The notes under the pieces were generated by a model. The model was not told the origin of the DNA. It saw only the letters and a list, made by a program, of their open reading frames with translations, and did not search any database. Source: Orenia marismortui DSM 5156 (GTDB lineage: Bacteria > Bacillota > Halanaerobiia > Halobacteroidales > Halobacteroidaceae). From it: a stretch of 64,000 bases of DNA. Position 1 is the stretch's first letter; the number at the start of each line of letters is the position of its first letter. The stretch is taken from assembly GCF_000379025.1 (NCBI RefSeq), contig NZ_KB900620.1, forward strand, positions 302,802 to 366,801. Direction: 5' to 3'. The translations under genes were made by a program, and so were the position numbers. This document shows positions 9,562 through 28,967 of this stretch, piece by piece.

Positions 9562-11385
9562 CTACTCTACTGTTACACTCTTAGCTAAGTTTCTTGGTTG
9601 ATCTACATCAGATCCTCTTTCTATCGCTACATAATATGATAATAATTGTAATGGTACAACAGATGGTATAGCAGTTAATAATTCATCAGTTTTAGGAATT
9701 TCAATCTTATAATCTAAATCTTCAATTACTTCTTCACCTTCAAATACAATTCCTGTTACAACTCCACCACGAGCTTTAACTTCTTTTACATTACTTAAAG
9801 TCTTATCAATTACAGATTGTTGAGTTGCCACAGCAACTACTGGTACTCCATCTACAATCAAAGCTAATGGACCATGCTTTAATTCTCCAGCCGGATAAGC
9901 TTCAGCATGAATATAAGATATCTCTTTCAACTTTAAAGCACCTTCTAAAGATACAGCATAATCAATACTTCTACCAATAAAGAAAGCATCATTTTGATCT
10001 ACATAATCTTTGGCTAATTCCTTAATAGCGTCTACACTATTATCAATTATCTGTTCTACTTTCTCTGGTAGTCTCTTTAACTCAGAAATTAATTCTTGAC
10101 TTCTACTTAAGTCTAGTATACCTTTCACTTGGGATAAATAGATAGCTAACATATAAAATGCCATTAACATTGTAATATAAGCTTTAGTAGAAGCAACTGC
10201 AATCTCAGGTCCAGCATGAAGATAGATTACATCATCTGCTTCACGTGGAATAGTGCTTCCTACTGTATTACAAATAGCTATTACCCTTGCCCCTTTATCC
10301 TGTGCTTCTCGTAAAGCTGCCAAAGTATCTGCAGTCTCTCCAGACTGACTTACTACAATCACTAATGTATTTTCATCAATTAGTGGATCTCTATATCTAA
10401 ATTCTGATGCAACATCTACTTCTACTGGAATTCGAGCTAAATTCTCAATTGCATATTTTCCTACTATTCCAGAATAATAAGCAGTTCCACAAGCAACAAT
10501 ATAAATTTTATTGTAACTTTCTAATTCCTTAGCTGTTAAACTAACTTCATTAAAATGAATAGTATCTTCATTTAAACGACCAGCAATAGACCTTCTTAAT
10601 GCTTCTGGCTGTTCATGTATCTCTTTAAGCATAAAGTGATCAAAACCACTCTTTTCAGCCATTCCTGGATCCCAGTCAACTTCAAAGACCTCTTTCTCTA
10701 TCCTTTCTCCACTAACAGTAGATAAATCTACTCCATCACAAGTAATAACCCCCATCTCACCATCATCTAAGATAAATACTTTATCTGTATGTTTTAAGAT
10801 AGCAGGAATATCAGAAGCTATAAAGTATTCTTCTTGCCCTATACCAATTATTAGTGGGCTATCTTCTCTAACTGTAATTAATTTATCTGGTTCTTCTGTT
10901 GATAAAATTACTAGAGCGTAAGCTCCTTCTAATTTGCCTACTACTTTTCTAACTGTCTCTTCTAAATTTCCATCATAATACTCTTGAATTAAATGAGGGA
11001 TCACTTCTGTATCAGTTTCCGATTCAAATTCATAGCCTTTAGCTTTTAGCTCTTCCCTTAACTCCATATAGTTTTCAATAATCCCATTATGAACAACTGC
11101 AAACTTTCCATTAGCACTTGTATGAGGATGAGAATTAGGTGTAGATGGTTTTCCATGGGTAGCCCAACGAGTATGACCAATCCCAATACTGCCTTTAGGA
11201 TCTTCTTTATCAGTAAGTGCTTCTAACTCAAACAATTTACCTACCGTCTTAAAAATATTAATCTCTCCATCATTATATAAAGCAACACCTGCAGAATCAT
11301 AACCTCGATATTCTAATTTTTGCAAGCCTTCTACCAATATTGGACTAGCCTGGCGATTTCCAATATAACCCACAATTCCACACAT
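9562..11385 (-). CDS. glmS: Glutamine--fructose-6-phosphate aminotransferase (isomerising)
   Basis: A 607-residue enzyme making glucosamine-6-phosphate from fructose-6-phosphate and glutamine, the entry step to peptidoglycan amino sugars. The N-terminal nucleophile Cys2 is in MCGIVGYIG, and the class II glutaminase domain runs to ~240 (GHTRWATHG, ETDTEVI). Two SIS sugar-isomerase domains follow (VSQSGETADT, CNTVGST, GPLALI), and the C-terminus DQPRNLAKSVTVE is canonical. The ATG has a TAGGGGG ribosome site. A glmS ribozyme lies immediately upstream, so expression should fall when glucosamine-6-phosphate accumulates. It is downstream of cdaA and glmM. Confidence 0.98.
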   Translation of the reverse strand: MCGIVGYIGNRQASPILVEGLQKLEYRGYDSAGVALYNDGEINIFKTVGKLFELEALTDKEDPKGSIGIGHTRWATHGKPSTPNSHPHTSANGKFAVVHNGIIENYMELREELKAKGYEFESETDTEVIPHLIQEYYDGNLEETVRKVVGKLEGAYALVILSTEEPDKLITVREDSPLIIGIGQEEYFIASDIPAILKHTDKVFILDDGEMGVITCDGVDLSTVSGERIEKEVFEVDWDPGMAEKSGFDHFMLKEIHEQPEALRRSIAGRLNEDTIHFNEVSLTAKELESYNKIYIVACGTAYYSGIVGKYAIENLARIPVEVDVASEFRYRDPLIDENTLVIVVSQSGETADTLAALREAQDKGARVIAICNTVGSTIPREADDVIYLHAGPEIAVASTKAYITMLMAFYMLAIYLSQVKGILDLSRSQELISELKRLPEKVEQIIDNSVDAIKELAKDYVDQNDAFFIGRSIDYAVSLEGALKLKEISYIHAEAYPAGELKHGPLALIVDGVPVVAVATQQSVIDKTLSNVKEVKARGGVVTGIVFEGEEVIEDLDYKIEIPKTDELLTAIPSVVPLQLLSYYVAIERGSDVDQPRNLAKSVTVE

Positions 11386-11434
11386 ATATATTAACCCCCT
11401 ATTTACTCTTAAAGTTGAAATAAGTGCTATTCCT

Positions 11435-11594
11435 AAATTCCTTTGTACTTAGAATTACTTCTAAGTTTTAAGAATTTAGTTTAAGGCTAATAGCTATAAC
11501 CTGAGGGTATCCGCCGAATATCGATCAGCCCTCTCCTCGTCAACTCAGAATTAAACACAATTTAAAATTGATAATTAATAATGAGTCCGGGCGC
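11435..11594 (-). ncRNA. glmS ribozyme (glucosamine-6-phosphate-activated self-cleaving riboswitch)
   Basis: In the 5' leader of glmS on the minus strand. Cleavage is expected between A at 11595 and G at 11594 (ATA|GCGCCCGG). Core signatures are present: GCGCCCGGACTCA pairing with TGAGT (P2), then GTTGACGAGGA, then ATCGA..TTCGGCGGAT, with GAGGG/CCCTC pairing across it. A P3-like stem (GGTTATAGCTATTAGCC) and a P4 hairpin (ACTTAGAA/TTCTAAGT inside AAATTC/GAATTT) follow. This matches the known Firmicutes glmS ribozyme in order and sequence. The P2 loop region has an AT-rich insertion containing ATTAATTATCAATTTT. Confidence 0.95.
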
Positions 11595-11608
11595 TATAAT
11601 TATATAGT

Positions 11609-25845: not shown

Positions 25846-26325
25846 TTATTTCTTCCCTCTTGCCATTGCGATCTTACCAGTTCTAACTAGCTCTTTAATT
25901 CCAAAAGGCCTTAAAAGTTCTTCTATAGCATTAACCTTATCTTCATTGCCAGTTATTTCGACCATTATTGAACCTGAGGCTACATCTACAATTTTACCCC
26001 TAAATATATCAACTATCTGCATAATCTCAGACCGAGTAGTAGCAGTAGCTTTGACTTTGATTAAAGCTAATCCTCTACTTACAACAGATTCTTGGGTTAA
26101 GTCACTAATTTTATGAACAACAATTAATTTGTTTAATTGCTTAGTTAACTGCTCTAAAACCCTATCATCACCTTCAACAACTAAAGTAATCCTAGATATT
26201 TCTTCATTATCTGTCTTACCAACAGATAGACTCTCTATATTAAAGCCTCGCCTACTGAATAAGCTAGCTACTCTAGCTAAAACACCAGATTCATTAGCAA
26301 CTAATACTGAAACTGTATGCTTCAT
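25846..26325 (-). CDS. ilvN: Acetolactate synthase small (regulatory) subunit
   Basis: A 159-residue regulatory subunit that gives valine feedback to the catalytic subunit. The N-terminal ACT domain reads HTVSVLVANESGVLARVASLFSRRGFNIESLSVG, with the second ferredoxin-like half after ~80. Its ATG overlaps the ilvB stop by four bases (ATGA), so the two are translationally coupled. Confidence 0.96.
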   Translation of the reverse strand: MKHTVSVLVANESGVLARVASLFSRRGFNIESLSVGKTDNEEISRITLVVEGDDRVLEQLTKQLNKLIVVHKISDLTQESVVSRGLALIKVKATATTRSEIMQIVDIFRGKIVDVASGSIMVEITGNEDKVNAIEELLRPFGIKELVRTGKIAMARGKK

Positions 26326-28058
26326 TCTACCTCCCCCTTTAAGACCATACTGTCTAAACTACCACCTGGTGGTACCATAGGGAATACATTCTCTTCTTCT
26401 TCTATAATAAAATCTAGCAAGTAAGGTTCTGGACTATTAATTGCTTCTTCTAATGCTGGCCTTATTTCTTCAGCTCTACTCACCCTCTTAGCTTTGATTC
26501 CAAAAGATTCAGCTAATTTTACAAAATCAGGTGTTGTAACTGGACACTGATCACCAGGAGCTGAACACCCTGGCGGACAGCTTTCCTGTTGCTTTAGACA
26601 TACAGAAGAATATCTTCTATCATAGAACATTTCTTGCCACTGCCTTACCATTCCTAAATAACCATTATTAAAAATAACAATATTTAATGGCAATTTATTT
26701 TTAGCTACAGTAGCTAGCTCCTGTAAATTCATCTGAAAGCTACCATCACCAGCTAAAGCCAATACTACACTATCTTTATTACCAACCTGTACTCCCACAG
26801 CAGCTGGGAAACCATAACCCATTGTTCCTAAGCCTCCAGAAGTCATGAAACTTCTTGGTTTACTATATTTATAGAATTGTGCTGCCCACATCTGATGTTG
26901 CCCTACTTCAGTGGTAATCAAAGCCTGCCCTTCAGTTAAATCATCTATCTCTTCTATAATTTCTTTAGGTGATAACTTCTTCTTTTCACCCTCTTCATTG
27001 AGTTCGTCTAACTTACGCCAGTTATCAACTTGGTCCAACCAATTATTTCTTTCTTTAGATTCAATTAACTTATTCATAGTAGTTAAGATTCTTCTAACAT
27101 CTCCAACTATTGGGATGTCGACAAGTTTTCTCTTTCCTACCTCAGCTGGATCAATGTCTATATGAATAATCTTAGCATCTTTAGCAAATGTCTCTAATTT
27201 ACCTGTAACCCTATCATCGAATCTAGCTCCAATAGCCACCAATAGATCAGCATTTGATACAGCCAAGTTAGCTTCAGTAGTACCATGCATTCCTAACATC
27301 CCTAGGCTCAATTCATCTCGTTCATCAAAAGCTCCCAAGCCTGTAAGAGTAGTAGTTACAGGGATATTAGCCTTTTTAGCTAATTCACGCAATTCGCTGC
27401 TAGCACCTGAAATAATAACTCCTCCACCGGAATAGATTACAGGCTTATTTGCCTCATTAATAGCCTTGGCTGCTTCTTTAATTTGTAGCTCATGACCATC
27501 ATAATTAGGTTTATAACCTGGTAAATTAATCTTTTTAGGATATGAAAATTCTGCTTTATCCTTTAAAATATCTTTAGGTATATCAATTAATACTGGACCA
27601 GGTCTTCCTGTACTGGCAATATGAAAAGCCTCCTTAATAATTCGTGCTAAATCTTTTACATCTTGAACTAAGTAATTATGTTTAGTAATTGGAGTCGTAA
27701 TCCCTGTAATATCAGCCTCCTGAAAGGCATCAGTCCCTAACATTGAACTAGGTACCTGCCCAGTAAAAGCCACAATCGGTACCGAATCCATATAGGCTGT
27801 AGCTAATCCAGTTACCAAATTGGTTGCTCCTGGACCAGAAGTGGCAATACAAACCCCTACTTTTCCAGTAGAACGAGCATAACCATCAGCTGCATGAATA
27901 CCTCCTTGTTCATGATGAGGCATAATATGTTCCAATTTAGAATCATACAACACATTATAAATTGGTAATACCGCTCCACCAGGATAACCAAAAATTGTTT
28001 CTACATTTTCACAATAAAGAGATTCTAAAAAAATCTCTGCTCCTGTCTTTAATGTCAC
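26322..28058 (-). CDS. ilvB: Acetolactate synthase large (catalytic) subunit
   Basis: A 578-residue ThDP-dependent enzyme. Motifs: FGYPGGAVLPIYN, HEQGGIHAADGYAR (catalytic Glu), TGQVPSSMLG, and the ThDP/Mg motif GDGSFQMNLQELATVAKNKLPLNIVIFNN. Between MFYDRRYS and PDFVKLAESFG there is a Cys-rich insert (residues ~486-505, spacing C-x6-C-x3-C-x6-C). The GTG start has AAAGGAGTG seven bases upstream. It heads the ilv-leu-cimA operon behind a T-box and a second terminator-like hairpin (28116-28150). Confidence 0.97.
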   Translation of the reverse strand: MTLKTGAEIFLESLYCENVETIFGYPGGAVLPIYNVLYDSKLEHIMPHHEQGGIHAADGYARSTGKVGVCIATSGPGATNLVTGLATAYMDSVPIVAFTGQVPSSMLGTDAFQEADITGITTPITKHNYLVQDVKDLARIIKEAFHIASTGRPGPVLIDIPKDILKDKAEFSYPKKINLPGYKPNYDGHELQIKEAAKAINEANKPVIYSGGGVIISGASSELRELAKKANIPVTTTLTGLGAFDERDELSLGMLGMHGTTEANLAVSNADLLVAIGARFDDRVTGKLETFAKDAKIIHIDIDPAEVGKRKLVDIPIVGDVRRILTTMNKLIESKERNNWLDQVDNWRKLDELNEEGEKKKLSPKEIIEEIDDLTEGQALITTEVGQHQMWAAQFYKYSKPRSFMTSGGLGTMGYGFPAAVGVQVGNKDSVVLALAGDGSFQMNLQELATVAKNKLPLNIVIFNNGYLGMVRQWQEMFYDRRYSSVCLKQQESCPPGCSAPGDQCPVTTPDFVKLAESFGIKAKRVSRAEEIRPALEEAINSPEPYLLDFIIEEEENVFPMVPPGGSLDSMVLKGEVE

Positions 28059-28115
28059 TCTAAATCACTCCTTTCTAATTACTCCTCTACTTCTTTACCT
28101 TAGAGTTAACAATAT

Positions 28116-28150
28116 AACAAAAACTCTGAGCTAGATAGCTCAGAGTTTTT
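28116..28150 (-). terminator. Second terminator-like hairpin just upstream of ilvB
   Basis: On the minus strand AACTCTGAGCTA pairs perfectly with TAGCTCAGAGTT around a two-base loop and is followed by TTTTTGTT. It lies 58 bases before the ilvB start and about 245 bases after the T-box terminator, so transcripts that pass the T-box still meet it. It may be a separate attenuator; no competing antiterminator is obvious. Confidence 0.8.
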
Positions 28151-28394
28151 TAAGATTATTTCAGGAAATTAGATATACTTATCCCTATATAATCAAGCTA
28201 TTATACTCCTCACTACTAACTACTTTTTAAATAATCTATTACTAAATATCTACTACTATGACTACTATCTAATTTTATCTAGATATCTTCTAATAACTAT
28301 TCTTAATAATGAAATTTTTATAACTACTCAATTCTACTTATTAACTTCTCACTAATTTTCAAAATTAAAAATATACTCTACTCAATTTAAATAC

Positions 28395-28745
28395 AAAGAA
28401 CTCTCGTCTCAACCAATAGACTAGTTCTATTAATTGGGACGAGAGTTCTTTCTCACGTGGTACCACCCAAAATTCATTACTATCTTACAATAGTAATCTC
28501 AATAAGTACTCTCATACTAAAATAAAGTATGATCTATACTCCAGTACATGGTAACGGGTACTGTCCTCTAAATAATCTTAGAGTCCCGGCAAAACTTACT
28601 TAGAATATTCTTTCAGTTTGCAGCTCTAGGGTGATTTTCAATAGTGTATTCTATACTGGCTTTCACCAACCCAGTTCGCTAAAGACAGAATCTAAACTAT
28701 TTACTTTCCCTTTCATAGCCTTTTGTTCATTTCTTTATTTGTTGT
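28395..28745 (-). promoter_or_regulatory. T-box riboswitch (probably tRNA-Leu responsive) controlling ilvB-cimA
   Basis: The T-box antiterminator motif GGGTGGTACCACG is at 28456-28468. The terminator is AAAGAACTCTCGTC/GACGAGAGTTCTTT (28396-28409 with 28438-28451). Stem I runs ~28610-28700 with base pairing TAGTTT/AAACTG. The specifier most likely is CTG (28621-28623), directly after GAG, the expected loop-E side; Leu fits the operon. The bulge TGGT pairs with a tRNA ending A-CCA, as tRNA-Leu does. A reading one base on (TGC, Cys) is possible but fits the discriminator and the genes less well. Confidence 0.92.
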
Positions 28746-28750
28746 TATAA

Positions 28751-28779
28751 ATTATAATTTATAACTTATACTTTGTCAA
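28751..28779 (-). promoter_or_regulatory. Sigma-A promoter P2 for the T-box leader and ilv operon
   Basis: Minus-strand TTGACA (28774-28779), 17-base spacer, TATAAT (28751-28756): full consensus. Transcription would begin near 28744, just before stem I. Confidence 0.92.
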
Positions 28780-28794
28780 GAAATTGATCAAAAA

Positions 28795-28915
28795 TAATTT
28801 ATTCTTTTCAGCTTTACAGTTCAAGGGTGAGAAAAATAACACTTTAATTCTCGGTTCTCAGCTACCCCGATTCTCTGTAATTAAAGAAATTATTTTATTC
28901 CCTATCACTACTTTT
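28795..28915 (-). promoter_or_regulatory. Truncated second T-box stem I upstream of the intact leader
   Basis: Minus-strand sequence downstream of promoter P1 contains AGAGAATCGGGG, GCTGAGAACCGAG, then CTCACCCTTGAACTGTAAAGCTGAAAAG, written here in pieces. This parallels the intact stem I (ATCACCCTAGAGCTGCAAACTGAAAG), including the putative specifier CTG after GAA (28817-28819). No antiterminator or terminator follows; the sequence runs straight into promoter P2. It looks like the remains of a duplicated T-box. Confidence 0.65.
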
Positions 28916-28938
28916 AATTTATATTTTATTTAATAAAT

Positions 28939-28967
28939 AGTATATGTAAGATTTTTAGATTTGTCAA
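28939..28967 (-). promoter_or_regulatory. Sigma-A promoter P1, upstream of the truncated T-box copy
   Basis: Minus-strand TTGACA (28962-28967), 17-base spacer, TATACT (28939-28944). Nearly consensus; its transcript would include the stem I fragment and then the intact T-box. Confidence 0.85.

Follow-up and report, generated by a model that had tools for sequence, protein, structure and literature searches.

What a T-box stem I with its own promoter and without an antiterminator does upstream of a complete T-box with a second promoter is the question raised by the leader of the ilvB operon of Orenia marismortui DSM 5156, which together with that operon lies on the minus strand of the stretch of 64,000 nucleotides analysed here (the window). 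By inspection, with gene names taken from protein families, its reading frames code for acetolactate synthase, ketol-acid reductoisomerase, the enzymes of the leucine branch and a citramalate synthase, and since Ile, Val and Leu are all made by this operon, sensing of either Leu or Ile would be physiologically sensible. The leader contains, in the 5' to 3' order, P1, a stem I with the CUC specifier (Leu), P2, a complete T-box with the AUC specifier (Ile) and ilvB, and its features are as follows.

28967-28939, minus: promoter P1, TTGACA-17-TATACT, 11 of 12 consensus matches, 17-base spacer
28917-28817, minus: upstream T-box stem I (Leu module) with K-turn, specifier loop, distal AGAGA and GCUGAGA loop (RF00230)
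28831-28829, minus: specifier CUC (Leu), followed by A28828 (from the sequence; invariant in relatives)
28816-28807, minus: orphan stem II 5' strand, UAAAGCU (28816-28810), and GAA as the 5' side of the S-turn (28809-28807); covaries with 28596-28590 in six genomes
28779-28751, minus: promoter P2, TTGACA-17-TATAAT, 12 of 12 consensus matches, 17-base spacer
28725-28612, minus: Ile module with stem I, stem II 5' strand CAAACU (28620-28615) and GAA (RF00230)
28635-28633, minus: specifier AUC (Ile) of the downstream box (from the sequence)
28600-28590, minus: shared stem II 3' strand, AGUA (28600-28597) and AGUUUUG (28596-28590)
28589-28432, minus: shared IIA/B, stem III and antiterminator (RF00230), with UGGU at 28465-28462
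28450-28396, minus: T-box terminator hairpin, overlapping the antiterminator (from the sequence; position conserved in relatives)
26322-28058, minus: ilvB, first gene of the operon (open reading frame)
28058 to 18360, minus: ilvB-ilvN-ilvC-leuA-leuC-leuD-leuB-citramalate synthase operon (open reading frames and relatives)

Two stem Is and a single expression platform

The tandem arrangement described in the initial annotation was found with the exact hexamers and 17-base spacers of P1 and P2 on the minus strand, and these are the top two promoter matches of the region in a promoter scan, from both of which transcription is predicted. The Infernal search with RF00230 that this annotation had proposed for both parts scored the upstream stem I at 39.6 bits and the downstream box at 107.9 bits. 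Thus, the sequence following P1, described there as stem I-like, is matched at 28814-28917 of the minus strand with an E value of 1.2e-7 when a 274-base stretch is searched alone and of 3.5e-7 in the search of the whole genome, and contains the K-turn, the specifier loop and the distal loops of a T-box stem I. The absence of all parts 3' of stem I accounts for a score under the gathering cut-off of 93, which refers to full-length boxes. No antiterminator or terminator was found between the upstream fragment and P2 (from 28806 on), including directly after the fragment, which agrees with the initial reading and means that this part is not a complete T-box. The full T-box that had been placed after P2 is indeed present at 28432-28725 of the minus strand, scoring above the gathering value of 93, with stem I, the AUC specifier, an antiterminator with the UGGU bulge and a terminator. 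Hence, there is one T-box terminator for both stem Is, instead of one terminator for each unit.

The 3' sides of the two stem Is align as had been observed initially (28831-28817 versus 28635-28621). A specifier of the Leu type had also been correctly proposed for the upstream stem I, but not its triplet, as the suggested CTG lies in the basal helix at the foot of the stem, while CUC (28831-28829) fits the loop position and is invariant. Following the rule for the specifier position taken from the TBDB paper (PMC7778990), the upstream specifier loop ends with U-CUC-A ahead of the CCCU strand, and therefore the specifier is CUC. This loop, composed of AAU and U-CUC-A, lacks the S-turn (AGUA/GAA), which is not fatal to a role as sensor, because a short specifier loop without S-turn is equally found in complete single GUA T-boxes of relatives. 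Genes for the cognate tRNA-Leu(GAG) and tRNA-Ile(GAU) are both present in the genome, and as both tRNAs end in ACCA, the single UGGU bulge fits either of them. From its specifier and architecture, the upstream stem I would be expected to bind tRNA-Leu.

Conservation and origin of the leader

The order of P1, CUC stem I, P2 and AUC T-box was found in nine of the 13 genomes of the order, including the window, with P1 displaced in one of them. Besides the window, the carriers are Halonatronum saccharophilum, Natroniella acetigena, G005 and G002 of the same family, and G008, G009, G010 and G012 of a second family. A tenth genome, G011, completes the set of ten leaders compared here; it has kept P1, the CUC stem I, P2 and the antiterminator, with the Ile stem I deleted, so that P2 leads straight into the stem I foot and a complete native stem II. 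P1 with its 17-base spacing and near-consensus hexamers is retained in nine of these ten leaders and P2 in all of them, at a nearly constant distance between the two (173-189 bases). In G012 (L121), a transposase-like reading frame with a helix-turn-helix, resembling IS30, is located immediately upstream of the Leu stem I; P1 is gone, and the leader is otherwise intact.

The CUC specifier is invariant in all ten leaders, and the Leu stem I, with a mean pairwise identity of 0.77, is the best conserved part of the leader. The Ile stem I, taken together with the leader on its 5' side, reaches 0.61, the region from stem II to the terminator 0.65, the P2 spacer and the linkers 0.45-0.50, and the spacer that follows the terminator 0.29. 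Over 19 tested pairs of the Leu stem I, 99.5% of cells are paired in the ten genomes, with changes on both sides in six pairs, a level reached by none of 500 shuffles, although the shuffle control, like the permutation control used below, ignores relatedness and independent lineages are few. RNAalifold similarly reports changes on both sides in eight of 24 Leu stem I pairs. Judged by these comparisons, selection acts on the upstream Leu stem I.

The ilvB leaders examined from outside the order each consist of one T-box, with a GUA (Val) specifier in a stem I of the upstream type. A single GUA T-box at ilvB is likewise present in the congeners G006 and G007, and G008 has two ilvB copies, one with a leader of the nested type and the other with a single GUA box. 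Comparison with the single T-box of G006 revealed 81% identity of its 5' half to the Leu 5' half (28917-28807) and 83% identity of its 3' half to the shared 3' half (28600-28432), against a baseline from shuffled sequences of 51%, at most 58%. For the Ile 5' half, identity falls to 61% with the G006 5' half and to 64% with the Leu half. As the outer halves match one contiguous T-box, the Leu module and the shared 3' half are read as the two ends of one T-box. The P2-Ile module thus looks like a guest within the stem II loop of this split T-box, judging by the identities. Stem Is of the Leu and single GUA types score about 95-114 bits and those of the Ile type about 27-31 bits, with a model that was built from the former two and is biased toward them. 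A simple duplicate of the downstream copy was rejected as the source of the upstream part by the identities (64% versus 81% and 83%) and by these scores. The initial suggestion of a duplication in which the first copy lost its platform is not supported either, since the identities point to a split T-box and conservation in ten genomes argues against a leftover. The leader would also illustrate a possible route of modular T-box evolution, in which a stem II loop takes up a 5' half together with its promoter.

Partially tandem T-boxes carry two specifier hairpins and one antiterminator, and the primary description of such 'partially double T-boxes' is reportedly that of Vitreschak et al. 2008. 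The window leader, with two stem Is upstream of one antiterminator, falls under this definition, and has in addition the internal promoter, the combination of Leu and Ile, and the split stem II with covarying alternative partners. It also resembles the 'partially tandem T-boxes' of a 2020 review, whose mode of action is given there as unknown (PMC7583486). On a leader of nested kind, the literature search yielded only one sentence, in the same review, and an internal promoter, a Leu/Ile pair and a covarying split stem II were not found described in the literature searched, which excluded the primary description of the partially tandem type. With the single T-box of ilv-leu operons (RF00230, transcriptional class), the leader shares stem I with a specifier, the stem II S-turn, IIA/B, stem III, the UGGN antiterminator and the terminator, but possesses in addition an upstream stem I with other specificity and its own promoter, with one 3' half for both. 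Complete tandem T-boxes with one terminator per unit are common in Bacillota, the two or three complete units of trp, thrS and ilv leaders being examples (PMC12452182). They share with the window leader the use of several tRNA sensors in a single leader of the branched-chain amino acid pathway; however, every unit of a complete tandem needs relief, whereas here two sensors face one terminator. A contrasting case is offered by G279 (L226), where three complete tandem T-boxes with AUC, GUC and CUC specifiers (Ile, Val, Leu) and three terminators precede ilvD.

Pairing of the orphan strand and the proposed switch

The orphan stem II 5' strand adjoins the 3' side of the Leu stem I, its own stem II 3' strand is absent, and the GAA following it is retained in nine of the ten linkers. 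The shared 3' strand can form six pairs and one bulge with the native Ile strand or seven pairs with the upstream strand. In the latter, composite helix, the base left as a bulge by the native strand has a partner and covaries with it. The partners are UAAAGCU/AGUUUUG in the window, and in the other complementary genomes UAAAGGU/AGCUUUG (with one mismatch), UGUAACC/GGUUAUG, UAUAACC/GGUUAUG, UAUAGUU/AGCUAUG and UAUAACU/GGUUAUA. In these six genomes, a set picked after the duplex energies were seen, 97.6% of cells of the composite helix are paired and three of seven pairs are changed on both sides; this covariation score is matched by one of 500 shuffles and abolished by sliding of the partners. 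Without any such selection, the cognate duplexes of all ten genomes have a mean energy of -4.3 kcal/mol as compared to -2.8 kcal/mol for permuted partners, and 0.4% of permutations do as well. In five genomes, none of the roughly 400 sites downstream suits the orphan strand better than the composite site. In the window, G002, G005 and G012, forcing the composite pairing on the P1 transcript costs no energy relative to its unconstrained fold; the pairing requires about 200 nt to be looped out. Complementarity is weak in G008, G009, G010 and G011. The Leu stem I is thus retained in four genomes that give no support to strand exchange, which was therefore rejected as a general rule.

These results lead us to propose a nested T-box, in which two alternative 5' sensors use one stem II 3' strand and one antiterminator, and which we regard as having an even chance of being correct. 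The transcript from P1 would contain the Leu stem I together with its stem II 5' strand, with an opened stem II loop that holds P2 and the Ile module, followed by the single stem II 3' strand, IIA/B, stem III, the antiterminator and the terminator. Either 5' module would pair with this single 3' strand, and uncharged tRNA-Leu(GAG) or tRNA-Ile(GAU) would then reach the one UGGU bulge and stop termination. Transcripts from P2 would permit the Ile reading only, while Leu reading, and Ile reading too, would be possible on those from P1, such that shortage of either amino acid could switch the operon on. In its complete form, put forward more tentatively and with somewhat less than even confidence, a T-box lies inside a T-box, with the Ile sensor and its own promoter in the Leu stem II loop, and the two 5' modules exchange strands in competition for a single 3' strand and antiterminator, which makes up an RNA OR gate tuned in addition by the choice of promoter. 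Both sensors, the promoters, the specifiers, the single platform, the conservation, and the complementarity and covariation in six genomes can be read from the sequences, and from them we infer strand exchange and logic of the OR type. G011, which has lost the Ile stem I and kept the Leu stem I and the antiterminator, fits a shared switch in this comparison. Tandem riboswitches with several platforms require every sensor to be satisfied, while this leader, if the model is true, represents two sensors on one switch, and its pairing scheme is testable base by base.

A serious competitor, though a rather unlikely one, is use of the sole antiterminator without any strand exchange, where tRNA-Leu bound to the upstream stem I reaches it with the acceptor end and the downstream stem II stays native, again with an OR-like outcome. 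Retention of the Leu stem I and CUC in all ten leaders, even where strand complementarity is poor, the ACCA ends of both tRNAs suiting UGGU, and the combination in G011 of only a Leu stem I with a complete native stem II are all in its favour, but it leaves unexplained the covariation between the orphan and downstream strands in six genomes as well as the retention of GAA in nine of ten linkers. Improbable in our estimate is a role as competitor or decoy, in which the orphan strand deprives the Ile module of the shared strand, or the Leu stem I does no more than hold tRNA-Leu, thereby lowering or delaying the Ile response with no Leu response of its own. Such interference is feasible given a composite pairing of at least native stability in the window and several relatives; however, an invariant CUC and a distal loop for the tRNA elbow are needless for a pure interferer. 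The initial annotation had offered a decoy or a pre-sensor in the P1 transcript, of which the pre-sensor stands as a possibility, whereas a pure decoy, possible in principle, leaves the conserved stem II strand and its covariation without explanation.

It is very doubtful that P1 and its stem I mainly regulate P2, by interference, pausing or transcript stability, with tRNA-Leu acting through P2, since the nearly constant distance of 173-189 bases between the promoters, which speaks for it, mainly mirrors the length of stem I. Ranked as least likely of all is a functionless Leu stem I left over from an ancestral leader. Its lack of a platform and the occurrence in relatives of single T-boxes with the same stem I type agree with a remnant, but this stem I exceeds all other parts of the leader in conservation over nine genera, and has an invariant specifier and compensatory changes; P1 is also near consensus in nine genomes. 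The nested arrangement with two alternative sensors remains our preferred reading.

Further elements in the window and in related leaders

Between the T-box terminator and ilvB, a second terminator is located at 28150-28119 of the minus strand, and upstream of it lies a conserved motif, AGGGATAAGTATATCTAATTT (window 28110-28200, minus strand), which is also present in most tandem leaders. This motif can be read as a short frame containing Ile, Leu and Val, for which a clear start codon was not found, and judging from the reading frame a leader-peptide attenuator before ilvB is possible. No known RNA family scored above chance in an Rfam search of the spacer before ilvB (28050-28400).

In this genome, leuS is preceded by a Leu (CUC) T-box whose stem I is ultrashort (L010 1084-1657; G000:C1 about 687.2-687.8 kb, minus strand). 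This leader holds an intact tRNA-Ala(GGC) gene, its CCA encoded, which is flanked by IIA/B and the antiterminator and apparently occupies the loop of stem III. The location of a tRNA gene within a riboswitch seems unusual. A tRNA-Ala(GGC) gene is found upstream of leuS in ten of the 13 genomes of the order (L204-L216), the leaders themselves being examined in three, and no further copy of tRNA-Ala(GGC) was seen in this genome in a search that was not exhaustive. In the metG leaders of G004 (L128) and G005 (L134), two stem Is plus a broken one precede one stem II and antiterminator, and are separated by a repeated, structured-looking element of ~85 bases, AGATAAGTGCCC...CACTTGATAGA. Elsewhere in the window, a glmS-like gene (9562-11385) is preceded by an ordinary glmS ribozyme (11423-11606, minus strand).
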